From NCBI GenBank assembly GCA_001602415.1, contig CP012155.1, positions 1,116,001-1,180,000 of the forward strand: a stretch of 64,000 nt of DNA. Reading direction: 5' to 3'. The stretch comes from Bacteroidetes bacterium UKL13-3 (GTDB taxonomy: Bacteria > Bacteroidota > Bacteroidia > UKL13-3). Positions 1,916-49,940 of this stretch are shown here, piece after piece. The notes below the pieces were generated by a model. The model made no database searches, was not told the DNA's origin, and worked only from the letters and a program-made list of their open reading frames with translations. Within the stretch, counting starts at the first letter, position 1; the number at the start of each line of letters is the position of its first letter. The position numbers and the translations under genes were made by a program.

Positions 1916-1951
1916 ACGAAGAATTTAGACGAGTGTAGATTTAGATATTTT

Positions 1952-2001
1952 CAATCAATCATATAGCCAGGGGGTTAAATCCCTGGCTATATGATTGATT
2001 G
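1952..2001. terminator. Perfect 21-bp inverted repeat between convergent genes
   Basis: Bases 1952-1972 and 1981-2001 are exact reverse complements, with an 8-base loop (GGTTAAAT). The element lies between the stop of the MFS gene and the stop of the convergent Spy-like gene, where a bidirectional terminator would be expected. The stem is unusually long and lacks a clear T-tract on either side, so it could also be a mobile palindromic element. The hairpin is seen directly; its function is inferred. Confidence 0.65.
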
Positions 2002-2015
2002 AGGCATTGCAGCAA

Positions 2016-2605: not shown

Positions 2606-3706
2606 ATGAGTAAAAAAGGTAGAATCTTGGTTGCCATGAGTGGCGGCTTAGATAGCACGGTTACGGCCGTTATGTTAGCCGAAGAAGGCTATGAAGTAGT
2701 AGGCATTACCATGAAAACATGGGATTATGCATCATCGGGGAGCAGCAAAAAAGAAACAGGCTGCTGTAGTTTAGATTCGATAAACGATGCCCGCACTATT
2801 GCCGTTAAGCATGGTATTCACCACATGATTTTGGATATTCGTGATGAATTTGGCGATTTTGTCATCAACAATTTTGTAGATGAGTATATCGCAGGTCGCA
2901 CACCCAATCCATGTGTATTATGCAATACGCATATCAAGTGGGAAGCATTATTAAAACGAGCCAATCAATTGGATTGTGAGTTTATTGCCACAGGTCATTA
3001 TGCGCAGGTTCGCAAGGAAAATAACCGATATGTGGTGTCCAAAGGATTGGATGAAAATAAGGATCAATCATACGTACTGTGGGGACTTAGTCAGGCTAGT
3101 TTGGATAGAACACGTTTTCCTTTGGGGCAATTTCGCAAAACAGAAATTCGCCAAATGGCAATAGATATGGGTTATGAAGAGCTTGCTAAAAAAAGTGAAA
3201 GCTACGAAATTTGTTTTGTGCCTGATAATGATTACCGTGGGTTTTTGAAACGTAGAGTGAATGGTTTAGAAGAGAGGGTGGAAGGGGGTGATTTTGTGAC
3301 TAGAGGCGGTAAGGTTTTAGGTAAACACAGAGGATATCCGTTTTATACAGTTGGCCAACGTAAAGGACTGGAAATAGCCTTGGGAGAACCCATGTTTGTG
3401 CTAGAAATAGAACCGGAAACGAATCGTGTTATCTTAGGTAGGGAAGAAGAATTGAAACAAAAAGGAATGTGGGTTCGAGGTTTGAATATGGGTAAGTATG
3501 CAGCCATTGATTCACCTCTGGAAACCATAACAAAGGTAAGATATAAGGATCCCGGAACACTTGCTAATATTATTCAAGAAGGTGATCGTATGAAAGTGAT
3601 TTTTAACAGCGATGTGAAGGCTATTGCACCCGGACAGTCGGCTGTTTTTTACGAAGGAAATGATGTTGTGGGTGGAGGTTGGATTGAAAAAGCATTTGAT
3701 ATTTAG
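2606..3706 (+). CDS. mnmA: tRNA-specific 2-thiouridylase MnmA
   Basis: This ATP-dependent enzyme thiolates U34 of Lys, Glu and Gln tRNAs, taking sulfur from a persulfide relay. The 366-residue length is normal. The N-terminal PP-loop SGGLDS is at residues 12-17. The first catalytic Cys is in RTPNPCVLCN (Cys106) and the second in SYEICFVPDND (Cys203). GHYAQV and GLDENKDQSYVLWGL are further family signatures, and the C-terminal beta domain is present. The ATG start is unambiguous. It is transcribed on its own behind a TAnnTTTG element. Confidence 0.97.
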   Translation: MSKKGRILVAMSGGLDSTVTAVMLAEEGYEVVGITMKTWDYASSGSSKKETGCCSLDSINDARTIAVKHGIHHMILDIRDEFGDFVINNFVDEYIAGRTPNPCVLCNTHIKWEALLKRANQLDCEFIATGHYAQVRKENNRYVVSKGLDENKDQSYVLWGLSQASLDRTRFPLGQFRKTEIRQMAIDMGYEELAKKSESYEICFVPDNDYRGFLKRRVNGLEERVEGGDFVTRGGKVLGKHRGYPFYTVGQRKGLEIALGEPMFVLEIEPETNRVILGREEELKQKGMWVRGLNMGKYAAIDSPLETITKVRYKDPGTLANIIQEGDRMKVIFNSDVKAIAPGQSAVFYEGNDVVGGGWIEKAFDI

Positions 3707-3892
3707 AAGGCAGTTAATGGATCATATTTCATAGTGCACTGCTAAAAGTTGATGGATACCTCTGAAATTTCTGCCTGTTTTCAATAATCAGCAATTTTTG
3801 TTATTGGTTATCAATTTTTTGAATTGTACAGCCAAAATATATCTTTAACAAAACCTTAAATTTCGTTTATTGATAATTGAATTACTTACAAC

Positions 3893-6112
3893 ATGAGCCA
3901 CACAAAAATATTCAGTACACTATTACTATCATTAGTTGTTCATTTTTCTTGGTCGCAAAACAAATTGCTAACCATTAATGATGCTGTTTTAAAACAACGT
4001 ACTACTCTTGCACCTGATCGCTTGATGCAATTGCAGTGGATAAAAGGAGTAAATACATTTAGTTATGTGGTTAAGGTTGATGGGAAGGAGAAGATAGTTC
4101 AATACGAAGCCCAAACGGGCAAAATAGATACCGTATTTACCATTGATGATTTTGCAACAGTTTTTAAAACGTTGGAAATTGATGTTCCAGTTCCGCAGCG
4201 GTTACCTTTTTTTACTTGGATCAATAACGAGCAGTTTAGGTTTTTTTACAATAATGCGTATTACGCAATGAACATTAAAACCAAAGTGGGTAAAGCGTTA
4301 ACTAAACTTCCTAAAAATGCAGAAAATATAAACTACAATGTTGAAACTGGGAAAACAGTTTTTACACTCGAAAATAATGTTTTGATGTATGATGCAGACA
4401 CATGGATAAAAGGAGCTGGAACATCGTCACAAAAAGTTGACAACGATGTAATGATAAAGGAGAACATGCTCACAACTGATGGAACCTATGGGGTAGTTAA
4501 TGGAAAAACGGTGCACAGAAGTGAGTTTGGTATTAACGGTGGATTATTTTGGTCGCCCAAAGGCAACAAACTTGCTTACTACAAAATGTACGAAATGGCT
4601 GTAACCGATTATGAGTTGATGAATATTGAATCGAAACCGGGCACTTTTGAAAAAATAAAATACCCTATGGCTGGAGCCTCAAGTCATACAGTAAAACTTT
4701 TCGTTCAAGATTTTAGCAGTAAGCGCCAGTTTGAAGTGCTCACAAAGGCAAATCCTGATCAATATTTAACCAATATTGCTTGGTCGCCACAAGAAGATTT
4801 AATTTTTATTGCAGTTGTAAATCGTGCACAAAATGAAATGATGCTCAATCAATACGATGGTAGAAGTGGAGCATTTATCAAAACATTATTTACCGAAAAT
4901 CATCCTAAATATGTAGAACCAGAACATCCCGTGACATTTATTCCCAATGATGATGGAAAGTTTATTTGGATGAGTAAACGCGATAGTTTTAATCAACTTT
5001 ATTTATATGATTTGAGAGGAAAATTGCTTCGTCAGTTGTCAACCGGAAAGTATGATGTAACCGAGTTATTAGGATTTGATAACCAAGGTAAAACTGCATT
5101 CTACATGGGTGCAACCAACAATGGTCTGGATCGTCAATTTTTTGCGGTTGAAATTTCGTCAGGAAAAACCAAACAGTTAACTAACTCACCTGGAGTTCAT
5201 GCTGTTAATGTAAGTGCAAATGGTCAGTATTTTATTGATACCTATAGCAGTTCAACACTCCCTCGTAAAACAGTTTTAATGGATGTAAAAGGAAACGAGC
5301 TTGCTGTTCTGCTGAATGCTACCAACCCTTTGGCCGATTACAAACTTTGTGGCATGCAAATGGGAACAGTTTTAGCAGATGATAATACTACACCCTTAAA
5401 TTATCGGATGTTTTATCCTCCGCAATTTGATTCTACTAAAAAATATCCTGTAGTAGTATATATGTATGGTGGGCCACACGCCCAAATGGTTACTAATACT
5501 TGGCTTGGTGGGGCGGATATGTGGTTATATTACATGGCGCAACAAGGGTATGTAGTATATACGATCGACAATAGAGGTTCGGGAAACAGAGGACTTGATT
5601 TTGAACAAGCAACATTCCGTAACTTAGGAACTGTTGAAAGAGCCGACCAATTAAAAGGTGTTGCATTTTTAAAAAAACAAAAATATATTGACTCAACACG
5701 TATGGGAGTTTTCGGATGGAGTTTTGGCGGCTTTATGAGTATTGGTATGATGACCAGAACAGATGCTTTTAAAGTTGGAGTTGCCGGTGGACCAGTTATT
5801 GATTGGAGCTGTTACGAAATTATGTATACCGAGCGATACATGGATAAACCGCAAGAAAATCCAGACGGTTATAAAGATGCTGATTTAACCAATTACGTTA
5901 AAAACCTAAAAGGTAAGTTGATGTTGATTCACGGAACAGATGACGATGTGGTATTGTGGCAACACAGTTTAAAATACATCAAAAAATGTGTAGATGAAGG
6001 AGTGCAGGTTGATTATTTTGTTTATCCCGACCACAAACACAATGTGTTGGGCAAGGATAGAGTGCACTTAATGCAAAAAGTTACCGACTATTTAAATGCA
6101 GGTTTAAAATAA
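3893..6112 (+). CDS. Secreted S9B dipeptidyl peptidase IV family protein
   Basis: This serine peptidase of 739 residues is predicted to remove Xaa-Pro or related dipeptides in the periplasm or at the surface. A signal peptide (IFSTLLLSLVVHFSWSQ) precedes a beta-propeller N-terminal half (about 40-500) and an alpha/beta-hydrolase half. The nucleophile is Ser610 in GWSFGG. The acid is probably Asp684 in HGTDDDVV and the base is His716 in YPDHKHNVLG. Length and order match the DPP4 family. The exact specificity cannot be read from sequence. It is convergent with the decayed two-component gene, with 7 bases between stops. Confidence 0.93.
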   Translation: MSHTKIFSTLLLSLVVHFSWSQNKLLTINDAVLKQRTTLAPDRLMQLQWIKGVNTFSYVVKVDGKEKIVQYEAQTGKIDTVFTIDDFATVFKTLEIDVPVPQRLPFFTWINNEQFRFFYNNAYYAMNIKTKVGKALTKLPKNAENINYNVETGKTVFTLENNVLMYDADTWIKGAGTSSQKVDNDVMIKENMLTTDGTYGVVNGKTVHRSEFGINGGLFWSPKGNKLAYYKMYEMAVTDYELMNIESKPGTFEKIKYPMAGASSHTVKLFVQDFSSKRQFEVLTKANPDQYLTNIAWSPQEDLIFIAVVNRAQNEMMLNQYDGRSGAFIKTLFTENHPKYVEPEHPVTFIPNDDGKFIWMSKRDSFNQLYLYDLRGKLLRQLSTGKYDVTELLGFDNQGKTAFYMGATNNGLDRQFFAVEISSGKTKQLTNSPGVHAVNVSANGQYFIDTYSSSTLPRKTVLMDVKGNELAVLLNATNPLADYKLCGMQMGTVLADDNTTPLNYRMFYPPQFDSTKKYPVVVYMYGGPHAQMVTNTWLGGADMWLYYMAQQGYVVYTIDNRGSGNRGLDFEQATFRNLGTVERADQLKGVAFLKKQKYIDSTRMGVFGWSFGGFMSIGMMTRTDAFKVGVAGGPVIDWSCYEIMYTERYMDKPQENPDGYKDADLTNYVKNLKGKLMLIHGTDDDVVLWQHSLKYIKKCVDEGVQVDYFVYPDHKHNVLGKDRVHLMQKVTDYLNAGLK

Positions 6113-44775: not shown

Positions 44776-45366
44776 TTATCTGTTCAGTGAGAAAAAGAAG
44801 TACAAATAAACCCATACCAAGCCCAGAAAGTGCCAGTATGTGGTGCACAAATTTATACTTAAAAGATTTTTTTTATGTACGTTGAATTGAAAAGTTTTAC
44901 CAATAACCACTGCCACGAAAATCAATCCGCCCAGCATGTGGAATAAATGAACACCTGAGATTACATAAATGAAGCTCTCTGAAGGATTTCCGGCCCAAAA
45001 TATTTTGTTTTCTACCAATTCAACCCAAGCATACCATTGTCCTACAGAGAATGCAATACCGAGCACAAGCGTTGCCAATAACATTGTTTTCAACATAGGC
45101 AGGTTATCTTTTTTTGCAGATAAGTATGCCCATTGCATTGTTATAGAGCTCAACACTATTGTTACAGTGTTGTAGGTGAACATCTTTGGTAAATCAAAAA
45201 TCAACCAATTACCTTCACCTCTGCGTACTATGTATCCACTGGTAAATGCCGCAAATAACATTACGCTAGCAACAATCATTAGCCACAATACAAACTTCGA
45301 TGGATGAATAAAATATTCAGGATCGCGTTGTTGTGTTGGTTTTATACTTTGTGTCATCATCTGCAA
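44776..45366 (-). CDS. Cytochrome c oxidase subunit III-like protein (short form)
   Basis: The 196-residue protein has five membrane segments and ends in TTYWHFLGLVWVYLYFFF, the subunit III terminal motif. GVHLFHMLGGLIFV matches the heme-copper oxidase subunit III fold. Two ATG choices lie three codons apart (45366 and 45357). It is the first gene of the downstream half of the oxidase cluster, and the accessory island lies just upstream. Confidence 0.93.
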   Translation of the reverse strand: MQMMTQSIKPTQQRDPEYFIHPSKFVLWLMIVASVMLFAAFTSGYIVRRGEGNWLIFDLPKMFTYNTVTIVLSSITMQWAYLSAKKDNLPMLKTMLLATLVLGIAFSVGQWYAWVELVENKIFWAGNPSESFIYVISGVHLFHMLGGLIFVAVVIGKTFQFNVHKKNLLSINLCTTYWHFLGLVWVYLYFFFSLNR

Positions 45367-45427
45367 GTATATTTTGTATACCTAATAGTAAGTACGGTGC
45401 GAAAGTAATCGTTTCAGGTTAAAAAGG

Positions 45428-45461
45428 AAAACGCTTAATAAATAAATTTATTAAGCGTTTT
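45428..45461. terminator. Terminator hairpin at the end of the lipoprotein island
   Basis: Bases 45428-45443 and 45446-45461 are exact 16-bp reverse complements (core ACGCTTAATAAAT) with only two bases between arms. It lies downstream of the last lipoprotein gene and before the first subunit III gene, so it probably stops transcription from the island before the oxidase genes. Confidence 0.75.
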
Positions 45462-45586
45462 GTGGGTTTTAGAGTGTTGATAATGAGATTTTAATAATAG
45501 TGATAGCTGTTCAGCGAATATGTAAAATTCAAATATCAAGAACGTTTCAAATTAAAATCAGTTCGAATTATGGGGAACTTACATCA

Positions 45587-46273
45587 TTAGTAATAAATAG
45601 TGAACTCATTTACCTCGGGCTCAAGTTTTTTTACATTATTCAGTTCCAAATTTTCAGGACTTTTTCTTAGTTCGTTATTGTAAGCTACTCGTCCTTTTGC
45701 TGCTTTGATTTTGATAGTAAAATTATTGTTCAAAGCAATTTTGTACGGAATTCTAAAATTTTTATAAAATCCGGTTGGAACAGATGATCCGACAAAATAT
45801 TTCTCTTCGTTATTGTAAGGTATTCCTATCATGTAGTATAGAGTATCGTCAGGTCCTAACATGTTTGTTGAAGAAAAGTTAATGATTAATGATACAGAGT
45901 CAGGAATATTATAGGTTCGTTTATAATCTTGATTGATAGGCAATCTATCATCATTAGAAATTCCGCTATAAGGCAAGTCAGAACTCGAGAGCGAAATACC
46001 TGTCATATCATCACCAATGCAGTTGTAAACTATTTTGAAATATCCATTTTCATCAGTACGAGCGTTTCCGGCATCGCGCACATTAGAGCCACCGCTAAAA
46101 AGGCTATTCCCTCTCCCTGCTACCGCTTTTACCAAAATACCTTTACGTGGTTGGCTTTTAGTTCCGTTCCATAGTGTTCCATCTATTGTATAGCTGCCGC
46201 TACAATCTTTTTTGCAGCTACTTATAGTAGCTGCAAAAAAGAAAGGTAGAAAAATTGAAATTAATTTCTTCAA
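45587..46273 (-). CDS. Paralogous lipoprotein 3 of the island (transthyretin-like N-terminus)
   Basis: The 228-residue lipoprotein has a signal peptide ending in FFAATISSC; Cys20 is the lipid-modified residue. The region after it (GSYTIDGTLWNGTKSQPRKG, then KAVAGRGNSLFSGGSNVRD, ARTDENGYFKIVYNC) looks like a carboxypeptidase-regulatory or transthyretin-like beta sandwich. This part is close to identical in all three island lipoproteins; the middle to C-terminal part is divergent and ends in KKLEPEVNEFTIYY. The function is unknown. The lipobox codons form a perfect 15-bp hairpin (46207-46241). Confidence 0.8.
   Translation of the reverse strand: MKKLISIFLPFFFAATISSCKKDCSGSYTIDGTLWNGTKSQPRKGILVKAVAGRGNSLFSGGSNVRDAGNARTDENGYFKIVYNCIGDDMTGISLSSSDLPYSGISNDDRLPINQDYKRTYNIPDSVSLIINFSSTNMLGPDDTLYYMIGIPYNNEEKYFVGSSVPTGFYKNFRIPYKIALNNNFTIKIKAAKGRVAYNNELRKSPENLELNNVKKLEPEVNEFTIYY
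46207..46241. repeat. Perfect 15-bp hairpin across the lipobox codons of lipoprotein 3
   Basis: Bases 46207-46221 (CTTTTTTGCAGCTAC) pair exactly with 46227-46241 around a 5-base loop. It lies at the same codon position as the hairpins in the two paralogs, but differs from them at four stem positions on each arm, all compensated. Confidence 0.9.
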
Positions 46274-46280
46274 AAAGTCT

Positions 46281-46967
46281 TTAATAGTTAATAGTTATAT
46301 CGTTTACCTCAGGTTCTAATTTTATTATATTATTAATCATAGATCCACCAACAGGTATAAGAAGGTTTGCTTTATAATTAGCATACCCAATTCCACTATT
46401 ATAACCAATAGTATATTTCATAGAAATAGCATCTTGATATCTTATACGAAAGCGTTTATAAAACCCGTTTGGTTGAATATCTTTTGTAAAAATTAAACGT
46501 TGGGTATTATCAGGAATTGCTATCAATACGTAAAGCGTATCAGAATTGCTAAGACCATTTATTGTTGAAAAATTAATATTTAAACTTACAGAGTCAGGAA
46601 TATTATAGGTTCGTTTATAATCTTGATTGATAGGCAATCTATCATCATTAGAAATTCCGCTATAAGGCAAGTCAGAACTCGAGAGTGAAATACCTGTCAT
46701 ATCATTGCCAATGCAGTTGTAGGTAATTTTAAAATAACCATTTTCATCCGTTCGGGCATTGCCAACATCTTGCACATTAGAGCCACCGCTAAAAAGGCTA
46801 TTCCCTTTACCTGCTACTGCTTTTACCAAAATACCTCTACGTGGTTGGTTTTTAGTTCCGTTCCATAATGTACCTTCAATGGTGTAGGAGCCATTGCAAT
46901 CTTTCTTACAATTACTGAGTGTAATTGTAAGAAAGAAAATGAGGAAGAATTTTAAAATGGTTTTCAT
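46281..46967 (-). CDS. Paralogous lipoprotein 2 of the island
   Basis: The 228-residue lipoprotein has signal peptide ILKFFLIFFLTITLSNC; Cys20 is the lipid-modified residue. The beta-sandwich N-terminal region is nearly the same as in its neighbours (DGNARTDENGYFKI-type core, then SSSDLPYSGISNDDRLPI). The variable part reads DTLYVLIAIPDNTQRLIF and ends in IIKLEPEVNDITINY. The function is unknown. It ends 7 bases before lipoprotein 3. A 38-codon T9SS remnant ends immediately before its ATG. Confidence 0.8.
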   Translation of the reverse strand: MKTILKFFLIFFLTITLSNCKKDCNGSYTIEGTLWNGTKNQPRRGILVKAVAGKGNSLFSGGSNVQDVGNARTDENGYFKITYNCIGNDMTGISLSSSDLPYSGISNDDRLPINQDYKRTYNIPDSVSLNINFSTINGLSNSDTLYVLIAIPDNTQRLIFTKDIQPNGFYKRFRIRYQDAISMKYTIGYNSGIGYANYKANLLIPVGGSMINNIIKLEPEVNDITINY

Positions 46968-47045
46968 GCTAAGGTTGTATTAAAATTTTAGAGATATAAT
47001 GGTTATTATTACATTGCACATGCACCACATAAATACCAGCATCAA
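46891..47045. repeat. Direct repeat, copy A (155 bp)
   Basis: This covers the first codons of lipoprotein 2 and the T9SS domain remnant before it. By eye it matches 47721-47872 base for base, except for one extra 3-base unit (ATT). A recent tandem duplication explains it. Confidence 0.9.
46901..46935. repeat. Perfect 15-bp hairpin across the lipobox codons of lipoprotein 2
   Basis: Bases 46901-46915 (CTTTCTTACAATTAC) pair exactly with 46921-46935 around a 5-base loop (TGAGT). Confidence 0.9.
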
Positions 47046-47085
47046 GCCCATACTCATTGGCTTGAATGCGCAGGGTAATAAACAT
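46969..47085 (-). pseudogene. Remnant of a T9SS type A C-terminal domain (38 codons)
   Basis: The frame from ATG 47085 to TAG 46969 reads ITLRIQANEYGLDAGIYVV, then HVQCNNNHYISKILIQP. The G-I-Y-V-V-x-V...ISKILIQ end is typical of the T9SS type A sorting domain, but no signal peptide or cargo body precedes it. It sits between lipoproteins 1 and 2 with one base on each side. It is probably a duplicated tail of the gene whose other remnant lies at 47799. Confidence 0.75.
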
Positions 47086-47086
47086 A

Positions 47087-47797
47087 TCAGTAATAAACGA
47101 TTACTTCATTTACCTCAGGTTCCATTTTTGTTAATAAAATGGAAAATTCCGGGTTGTTTTTTATCACATTTAAATAACTGCTGTAGCCCCTAGCACTTCT
47201 AAAAAATAGCTTATTATCAATAGGGTACCCTTGATCTTTATATTTAATACGAAGTATTTTAAACAAACCGTCAGTGACTGGGCTGTTTTTATAAATCCGA
47301 TAAAATTTATAATCAAAACTTTTGCTATCAAAGTATTCAGTTGCACCTGGTATTCTTAAATAGGCGGTGTCTTGTTCACTCATTAAGGATCTATTTTTTA
47401 TATATATATATATGGTTATTGAATCAGGAATATTATAGGTTTGTTTATAATCTTGATTAATTGGCAATCTATCATTATTTGAAATGCCGCTATAAGACAA
47501 ATCAGGACTTGAAAGCGAAATACCCGTCATATCATCGCCAATGCAGTTATAGCTTATTTTGAAATAGCCGTTTTCATCGGTACGTGCATTTCCAACATCC
47601 CGCACATTGGAACCTCCGCTAAATAAACTGTTTCCTTTTCCCGCAACGGCCTTTACCAGAATTCCGGTGCGGGGTTTGCCTTTGGTGCCATTCCAGATAG
47701 TGCCTTCGATGGTATAAGAGCCATTGCAATCTTTCTTACAATTACTGAGTGTAATTGTAAGAAAGAAAATGAGGAAGAATTTTAAAATGGTTTTCAT
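47087..47797 (-). CDS. Paralogous lipoprotein 1 of the island
   Basis: The 236-residue lipoprotein has a signal peptide and lipobox identical to lipoprotein 2 (TITLSNC). The conserved beta-sandwich region shows only a few changes (SSPDLSYSGISNNDRLPI). The divergent part includes EQDTAYLRIPGATEYFDSK and ends in LTKMEPEVNEVIVYY. It is nearest to the chimeric T9SS remnant. All three paralogs keep the same first 110 residues and the same last ten, with a changed middle. The function is unknown; surface display or periplasmic binding is a guess. Confidence 0.8.
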   Translation of the reverse strand: MKTILKFFLIFFLTITLSNCKKDCNGSYTIEGTIWNGTKGKPRTGILVKAVAGKGNSLFSGGSNVRDVGNARTDENGYFKISYNCIGDDMTGISLSSPDLSYSGISNNDRLPINQDYKQTYNIPDSITIYIYIKNRSLMSEQDTAYLRIPGATEYFDSKSFDYKFYRIYKNSPVTDGLFKILRIKYKDQGYPIDNKLFFRSARGYSSYLNVIKNNPEFSILLTKMEPEVNEVIVYY

Positions 47798-47872
47798 GCT
47801 AAGGTTGTATTAAAATTTTAGAGATATAATGGTTATTACATTGCACATGCACCACATAAATACCAGCATCAA
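47721..47872. repeat. Direct repeat, copy B (152 bp)
   Basis: This matches copy A at 46891-47045 except for one missing ATT. It spans the start of lipoprotein 1 and the T9SS tail of the chimeric remnant. Similarity to copy A stops abruptly near 47872, marking a recombination junction. Confidence 0.9.
47731..47765. repeat. Perfect 15-bp hairpin across the lipobox codons of lipoprotein 1
   Basis: Bases 47731-47745 and 47751-47765 are exact complements around TGAGT, identical to the hairpin of lipoprotein 2. Confidence 0.9.
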
Positions 47873-48325
47873 TACTTTATTATCATCCCAATCAAAATAC
47901 TGACCCTGTATATCAAAAGCATCATCTCTAAACTCATAATAACTAAAGTCCATAATAGCTAAAGGTACTTTTCTTTCACTACTATATATGTCATCGGCTA
48001 TGTTTTTTACACTGCGTGTAGTAGGTAAAAATCCTTTAGTATATGAGCGGTTATAAAACTCAAAATGATGACTATACCAATCAAAAGATGGCTTAACGGA
48101 GGTTACTCCTAAATTGGTTTGATAATCATTTGTAACCTCTACACTCATGTCGTACAAGAAATTCGAATAGCAAGGGTAATACTGATTATAAGGTTTTTGA
48201 AGTCCTGAATATAATTGATGAAGTTCATCATTCATATCAGGTACGGTAGTGCTTTGCGCAATAGTATGCGAAGCCTGAAATGCTAAAATGATACATATTA
48301 ACATTCGTATTAATAGAGCTCTCAT
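47799..48325 (-). pseudogene. Chimeric remnant: N-terminus of a secreted protein joined out of frame to a T9SS tail
   Basis: A 171-codon frame from ATG 48325 begins with a signal peptide (MLICIILAFQASHTIAQ) and about 130 residues of an exported protein (YDMSVEVTNDYQTNLGVTS and later DIYSSERKVPLAIMDFSYY). After DWDDNKV, at about 47872, it enters the direct-repeat sequence in the wrong frame and ends at 47810 with a nonsense tail. In the other frame the same bases code DAGIYVVHVQCNNHYISKIL, then IQP and a TAG at 47799. The body of the protein, normally much longer, appears deleted. Confidence 0.75.
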
Positions 48326-48336
48326 GGTATCTCTAT

Positions 48337-48828
48337 TTATTTAGTGGATACAATTTTTTTGAGCTCATCTATTTCTTTCTGCTGCCGTATGATGTATAAA
48401 GTAAGTTCTTCTACTTTTTCAAGTAAAAGCCGCTGAGTATCACCCACCGGTAGTTGTTTCTCTTTTACTTGTGCAGCCGTAGGTATATTAGGTAAATGTT
48501 TGTTTTTACGAATAAAGAGATCAAGCTCATTTAAGGGTAATAGTTTATATGCATCATCAAATACATAATCAGCCCAACCGTCATTGTTTACATAAATTTC
48601 TCGGACTCGCATCCACCCATCTACCGAAAATCGAAATTGATTAGAAACTCCAGGTGTTTTAACCCAAACTTGCCCAAATGTATCAATTGAGAAAAAAGTA
48701 ATGTTGTTTCTTCTAATTTGATAAGGGGCCAAATTGTTTGTTAAAGTTGTCCATTGCGCTGATGCTTCATTAAAAGCAATAAGCGTTAATACTCCCAATA
48801 GAAGTGTTTTTGTGTTGATTAATCTCAT
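48337..48828 (-). CDS. Exported surface protein with tail-fibre-like C-terminal domain
   Basis: The 163-residue protein has a signal peptide (TLLLGVLTLIAFNEASAQ). Its core contains VREIYVNNDGWADYVFDD, YKLLPLNELDLFIRKNKHLP and IPTAAQVKEKQLP, and it ends in a coiled coil (LLLEKVEELTLYIIRQQKE). This WADYVF...KNKHLPxIP...VEELTLY arrangement is a common Bacteroidota surface module, often at the end of fibre-like or cell-wall-surface proteins. The function is unknown. It is the first gene of the island, 11 bases before the chimeric remnant, and a TAAATTCG box upstream may be its -7 element. Confidence 0.8.
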   Translation of the reverse strand: MRLINTKTLLLGVLTLIAFNEASAQWTTLTNNLAPYQIRRNNITFFSIDTFGQVWVKTPGVSNQFRFSVDGWMRVREIYVNNDGWADYVFDDAYKLLPLNELDLFIRKNKHLPNIPTAAQVKEKQLPVGDTQRLLLEKVEELTLYIIRQQKEIDELKKIVSTK

Positions 48829-49037
48829 AAGGTTTTTTATTAATGTTAATCGAATTTAGTATTAAATGCAGAATAAAAAAATAAATTACCAATTTTAAAA
48901 ATAGATATCTAACTGTGACGTGCTTTTGCGATAGAGAAATTAATATGCAAGAAGTATCAAAGAAAAATAAGTGAAGAATAATCCTTGAGTATGATAATAA
49001 TCTATACTAAATTGTAGAATAGAACAGGACGATTTTA

Positions 49038-49940
49038 TTAAAGTTTATCTAATAAATAAGCAATTTGCACAAGAGGTAAATATAAAAACGATGCAAACAT
49101 CAATCGTTTGGCTTCTTTGTTATCACAAGTAATATACAATCTAAAAGCAAAGTACGACATTACTGCACCGGCAAGCATGGCAATAATACCTGAGGTTAAA
49201 CCCGTAAAACCTTCTTGTGTTGGCAAAAATCCAACAGGAATAAGCAATAAAGCAAAGGCTAAATTTTGCAAGGCTGTTTTTTTATCTTTTCCGTAAGAAG
49301 GCAACATTTTAAATCCTGCTCTCTTATAATCTTCATCCAATATCCAAGCAATGCTCCAAAAATGCGGAAACTGCCAAATGAATTGAACGCCAAACAATAC
49401 CAAAGCTTCGGTTGTAATGTGTCCGCTAAAGGCTGTCCAACCGATCAATACAGGCAATGCACCCGGAAAGGCACCCACAAATACCGAAAGTGGAGAGATG
49501 CGTTTTAAAGGAGTGTAAATAAATGCGTATGAAATCAACGAGGCCAATGCCAGCATACTGGTTAATTGGTTTAAGTAAATACTCATGATAACCACTCCGA
49601 TGATTCCCATTACAGAACTGGCAATAGCTGCTTCGGTGATGCTCATCCTATTGGTTGCAACAGGGCGGTTAGCAGTCCGTATCATCAAGATGTCGTAGTT
49701 TTTTTCGATAATCTGATTTAATCCATTGGAGGCGGCAACTACCAAAAAACCTCCAATACTCAGTATGGTGAGATCTAACCAATTGATAGCTCCTTTGGCA
49801 GCAGTCATGTATGTTATTGCAGCAGAAAATACCACCAAAAGAGTCAAACGTATTTTGACTAATTGTTGATAATCTTGCACTTTCTGCTTCAAGGCAGAAA
49901 CAGCAATGATGTCTTCATTATGTTGAGCTACTGTTTTCAA
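49038..49940 (-). CDS. ctaB: Protoheme IX farnesyltransferase (heme O synthase)
   Basis: This polytopic membrane enzyme of 300 residues adds farnesyl to heme b to make heme O. The UbiA-type motifs are visible: NGLNQIIEKNYDILMIRTANRP (NxxxxxxYD, split here by motif) and the second Asp motif in ILDEDYKRAGFKMLP. RPVATNRMS is typical of CtaB/CyoE. It follows heme A synthase by six bases. The oxidase series is interrupted by the island just after this gene. Confidence 0.96.
   Translation of the reverse strand: MKTVAQHNEDIIAVSALKQKVQDYQQLVKIRLTLLVVFSAAITYMTAAKGAINWLDLTILSIGGFLVVAASNGLNQIIEKNYDILMIRTANRPVATNRMSITEAAIASSVMGIIGVVIMSIYLNQLTSMLALASLISYAFIYTPLKRISPLSVFVGAFPGALPVLIGWTAFSGHITTEALVLFGVQFIWQFPHFWSIAWILDEDYKRAGFKMLPSYGKDKKTALQNLAFALLLIPVGFLPTQEGFTGLTSGIIAMLAGAVMSYFAFRLYITCDNKEAKRLMFASFLYLPLVQIAYLLDKL

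Follow-up and report, generated by a model that had tools for sequence, protein, structure and literature searches.

The lipoprotein genes and their genomic context

The stretch of DNA analysed here (the window: 64,000 nucleotides of Bacteroidetes bacterium UKL13-3, assembly GCA_001602415.1, contig CP012155.1, positions 1,116,001 to 1,180,000) holds three paralogous lipoprotein genes, called A, B and C below, in an island of five genes for exported proteins that interrupts a cytochrome-oxidase gene cluster. In a genome of the same genus the flanking coxIII-like gene and cyoE lie 19 nt apart, without the island, indicating that the cluster is an insertion of ~3.7 kb, or that it was lost in the relative. 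The features are as follows, in window positions:

45367-49037, no strand assigned: island, 3.7 kb, between the coxIII-like gene (44776-45366) and cyoE (49038-49940)
45587-46273, minus strand: lipoprotein A, 228 aa, TTG start, 8 nt beyond the stop of B
46281-46967, minus strand: lipoprotein B, 228 aa, ATG start
46884-47045, minus strand: 5' end of B and upstream region, identical to 47714-47872 of C save one 3-nt indel
47087-47797, minus strand: lipoprotein C, 236 aa, ATG start

No Pfam family was found to match A, B or C. The lipoprotein structure could be predicted only with low confidence (a mean pLDDT of 60), and it matched nothing but pilin-like and transthyretin-like beta sandwiches, and these weakly. 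Close homologs were absent from a set of 64 genomes of the family, which included the sole other genome of the genus; class-wide homologs are ~25-43% identical, and a homolog search of genome contigs gave one weak partial match, in a Chitinophagaceae MAG.

The tract shared by B and C (~155 bp) runs from ~90 nt upstream of the ATG, where the indel lies, to ~80 nt inside the gene. Past it, B resembles A (90-100% in places), while C is ~65-90% alike; the C-terminal third of the three genes (45587-47797) is highly divergent, and the 5' two thirds are much closer and mosaic. To judge from these alignments, the shared 5' tract appears to derive from duplication or gene conversion, and the trio would be a mosaic built by duplication and, probably, gene conversion, a pattern that may be likened to gene families diversifying by gene conversion.

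Two copies of a tail-like fragment, DAGIYVVHVQCNN[N]HYISKILIQP, lie on the minus strand directly upstream of B and C (46971-47083 and 47798-47872), and resemble a T9SS-type C-terminal sorting tail. The ORF at 47810-48325 is not in frame with the second copy, so its tail looks frameshifted or truncated. At the edge of the island, a perfect 16-bp repeat (45428-45461) looks like a bidirectional terminator.

Perfect hairpins at the lipobox codons

Each of the three genes carries a perfect inverted repeat that spans its lipobox C-K-K-D codons, at the same codon position, as the first-pass annotation had observed. The 15-bp arms and 5-base loops given there fall inside stems that are in fact 17 bp long in A and 16 bp in B and C, and the loop of A has 3 nt, not 5:

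46206-46242, minus strand: hairpin A, 17-bp perfect stem, 3-nt loop (arms 46206-46222 and 46226-46242), covering codons FFFAATISSCKKD of lipoprotein A
46900-46936, minus strand: hairpin B, 16-bp perfect stem, 5-nt loop (arms 46900-46915 and 46921-46936), covering codons FFLTITLSNCKKD of lipoprotein B
47730-47766, minus strand: hairpin C, same sequence as hairpin B (arms 47730-47745 and 47751-47766), in lipoprotein C

When 16 pairs were aligned over the three copies, all 48 cells were Watson-Crick paired, and pairing fell to 37-58% if the partner was slid by 1-3 columns. Between A and B/C, 12 pairs are invariant and four are changed on both sides, with none changed on one side and none broken, so that the claim of four stem differences, each complemented on the opposite arm, holds in full. 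The four pair changes are all transitions, and G-U pairs occur in neither allele. If the arms had diverged independently, four matched changes per arm would have a probability of ~7e-6. The covariation had been described across three copies; pairing is indeed complete in each, but B and C are identical at their 5' ends and only two independent alleles covary.

The stems also respect the codon register. In hairpin A whole codons are paired (TTT/AAA, GCA/TGC, GCT/AGC, ACT/AGT), as they are in hairpin C (CTT/AAG, ACA/TGT, ATT/AAT), and the antisense of the lipobox side, read in register, converts ISSCKKD to IFFAATY in A and LSNCKKD to IFLTITE in C, the cores of which, FFAAT and FLTIT, are the very peptides encoded by the hydrophobic arm. 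The paired changes weigh differently on the two arms: in the hydrophobic (left) arm the 3 codons concerned all change the amino acid (F/L, A/T, A/I), whereas in the lipobox (right) arm 2 of 3 are synonymous (K AAA/AAG, C TGC/TGT) and the third is the tolerant S/N residue preceding the Cys. This asymmetry agrees with the free arm having been copied from the constrained one.

The hairpins are far from chance

Protein constraint alone had been judged insufficient to explain the pairing, and recoding the peptides bears this out: the exact probability of obtaining the full stem by synonymous recoding is 2.9e-5 for A and 8.3e-5 for C, and in simulation ~0.2% of the synonymous shuffles reach at least 12 bp. 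The predicted folds of the mRNA strand, at -21 to -31 kcal/mol, have z-scores of -4.9 to -5.9, and 0 of 200 dinucleotide shuffles were equally stable. They are also the strongest in 739 kb of sampled coding sequence (706 ORFs) of the genome, a census that followed one of 464 kb; it covered a sample of the genome, with gene starts set by a simple ORF rule. The pattern is genuine and lies well outside what chance would give.

Strong hairpins are moreover in excess at the 5' ends of genes. Within the first 40 codons, this genome has 7 hairpins scoring at least 12, those of A, B and C among them, where 0.2 would be expected; relatives have another 7, again against 0.2, which makes 14 against ~0.4. 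The control was synonymous shuffling, limited in the large census to five shuffles of each gene. The excess persists without the window genes and L137, and for ORFs of at least 200 aa, and it is not confined to hydrophobic segments. Beyond codon 80 there was no clear excess in this genome, and in relatives the excess had a much lower density. In part, the excess in the first 40 codons could stem from misplaced gene starts or from regulatory RNA at the 5' end. Over all hairpins, neither the codon register nor the ratio of G-U to A-C (9 to 4 within N-terminal stems, 3 to 6 at their outer edges) gave a clear signal. Several of the strong hairpins, in this genome and its family, lie at clear signal peptides or N-terminal anchors unrelated to those of A, B and C:

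L080, 5607-6314: strong hairpin, clear signal peptide or N-terminal anchor
L104, 18322-19437: strong hairpin, clear signal peptide or N-terminal anchor
L137, 6441-6893: strong hairpin, clear signal peptide or N-terminal anchor, found by pattern search
L075, 10387-12276: strong hairpin, clear signal peptide or N-terminal anchor

Among the orthologs of these four genes, some with unreadable starts, no readable N-terminus retains the stem; the exception is a distant homolog, L162, with a different and weaker one.

Proposed template switching between the arms

The first-pass annotation had listed three causes, namely selection on an mRNA hairpin, a DNA-level site and correction of a quasi-palindrome by template switching. 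The last fits best, and we give about even chances to the explanation that the hairpins arose by homogenisation of the two arms during replication, tolerated at the signal peptide; the events themselves, their direction and their number are inferred. A lipoprotein signal peptide followed by C-K-K-D is by nature a near-palindrome in the DNA, because TTT (Phe) and CTT (Leu), reverse-complemented in register, become the Lys codons AAA and AAG. At such a site the nascent strand could fold back and one arm serve to rewrite the other. Constrained by the protein, the lipobox arm (S-[SN]-C-K-K) would be the template, and the rewritten hydrophobic arm would survive since the antisense of SSCKK or SNCKK, FFAAT or FLTIT, is an acceptable hydrophobic core. 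After A and C diverged, substitutions in the right arm, either synonymous (Lys AAA/AAG, Cys TGC/TGT) or tolerated (Ser/Asn), would have been copied to the left arm, resulting in perfect stems with matched changes, and B may have acquired its C-type 5' end by duplication or gene conversion.

Several observations are consistent with this route. The repeats are close and perfect with short spacers (16-17 bp, loops of 3-5 nt) and the changes are mirrored on the arms in 4 of 4 changed pairs, two of them adjacent, both being marks of template switching; the loops of A and B/C are too dissimilar to speak for or against spacer inversion, a further mark. Watson-Crick stems without G-U in both alleles are what copying is expected to give. 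The orthologs lacking stems at other signal peptides and anchors suggest that stems come and go, as products of mutation would. Transient, perfect, arm-matched stems at places where either arm can be rewritten harmlessly point to template switching. Against it, no such event could be seen to separate close relatives, as identity to homologs beyond the trio does not exceed ~43%; two paralogs are only ~75-80% alike across their conserved part with both stems unbroken, which calls for recent or repeated correction; changes that are all transitions would also result from G-U intermediates under RNA selection; and the 5' excess of strong hairpins extends to segments that are not hydrophobic.

Coding genes of Saccharomyces provide documented cases of arms homogenised by template switching (PMC8604942) and, as here, short inverted repeats within the genes show multi-nucleotide and nonsynonymous changes; the yeast events were placed on a strain phylogeny, whereas ours are deduced from a pair of paralogous alleles and concern a bacterial signal peptide. 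Template switching also creates and maintains hairpins in RNA genes (PMC8794818), with perfect stems and multi-base compensatory changes from a single event, in contrast to the protein-coding lipobox codons of our case. It has been proposed for the coding palindromes of mitochondria too (PMC6649704): those of Nematomorpha are perfect inverted repeats with both arms translated, in which the register likewise sets facing hydrophobic and polar residues, but they number 110 at lengths of 15 bp or more, with a mean of 43 bp, against 16-17 bp in the present, lineage-restricted ones.

It is a more tentative idea, which we would sooner expect to fail than to hold, that signal peptides and N-terminal anchors are preferred survival sites of template-switch mutations, for the reason that the antisense of the adjoining polar codons is itself a hydrophobic core. 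If so, replication errors would time and again rewrite the targeting signals of these bacteria, and might even create some. Compensated base changes are commonly read as the mark that proves an RNA functional. In the present case a mutational route without RNA function fits at least as well, where the protein code permits it. Were this route general, it would explain the fast turnover of signal-peptide sequences, give new hydrophobic targeting segments a simple origin, and call for caution with RNA calls inside genes that are made from covariation only.

Alternative explanations

The main rival is selection for an mRNA hairpin, in which a stem ~31 nt past the start codon would slow the ribosome or protect the message during synthesis and targeting of the signal peptide, and compensatory substitutions would maintain it. 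We hold this possible, if rather unlikely. The stable predicted folds, the four compensated pairs with none broken and the general surplus of strong stems early in genes (first 40 codons) all suit it, as does the onset of the stem 31 nt past the start in A, B and C alike; the four transitions, too, are compatible, and there are no close relatives to show single steps. RNA selection, however, tolerates G-U pairs, which both alleles lack, and the stems of the other signal-peptide genes are not retained in orthologs. Furthermore, homologs with broken stems, named beforehand as evidence against a maintained hairpin, do exist at long range: at ~25-43% identity the long stem is absent from the lipoboxes of class-wide homologs, among which two paralogs of a single genome come closest, with a quasi-stem of 11 bp; the native lipobox encoded by the right arm is common to homologs. 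A conserved mRNA hairpin is recognised by structure and covariation across homologs, and the absence at this distance, with covariation between two alleles, argues against an old conserved element, recent selection still being compatible. Nor is a general lipobox hairpin tenable, as of the 28 candidate lipoproteins that the first sample of the genome contained only A, B and C had the long stem, together with one unrelated, imperfect stem of 14 bp.

That composition and codon bias make FF...CKK lipoboxes near-palindromic, with A, B and C as the extreme tail of chance, seems improbable to us. Complementarity is easy for F-K codon pairs (probability 0.62 per pair), and stems of at least 12 bp do appear among same-peptide shuffles at the rate given above; but the full stem, at 3e-5 and 8e-5, is found in two alleles, and the 14 strong 5' hairpins (A, B and C included) far outnumber those expected, so that the shuffles, the census and the exact probabilities already disfavour this reading.

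A DNA-level element, be it a mobile palindrome, a hairpin of the IS200/IS605 or REP type, or a site for recombination or protein binding, is very improbable. The palindrome is short and perfect and the identity of B and C stops ~15-45 nt beyond it, yet A differs from B/C in sequence, as a binding site would not. A search of the genome with the B/C hairpin at up to 3 mismatches returned B and C only, unlike a dispersed REP or IS family, and the right arm encodes the native lipobox shared with homologs; on these two grounds an inserted palindromic element was rejected. Stem-loops of the IS605 type are associated with lipoprotein genes in Borrelia as well (PMC2775950), but those are IS-derived and at 3' ends, whereas ours are in 5' coding sequence with no dispersed copies.

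Two further candidates were discarded. An intrinsic terminator or attenuator does not agree with the coding strand after the stem, which reads TTG... with no T run, nor with the A+T-rich stem of B/C; and a frameshift site is not conserved, A having C-AAA-AAA where B/C have TGT-AAG-AAA.

Other inverted repeats

A few inverted repeats were observed besides. An intergenic one in the window (1951-2002) has perfect 22-bp arms and an 8-nt loop. Two relatives share similar inverted repeats of the TTTTGTTACTTTTTTGGGC...GCAAAAAAGTAACAAAA type in doubtful ORFs (L106, 14449-14811; L060, 18954-19256), perhaps a dispersed palindromic repeat. In L113 of a relative (3465-4160, plus strand), presumably the gene of ribosomal protein L1, codons 23-42 form a long imperfect hairpin that may serve autoregulation.
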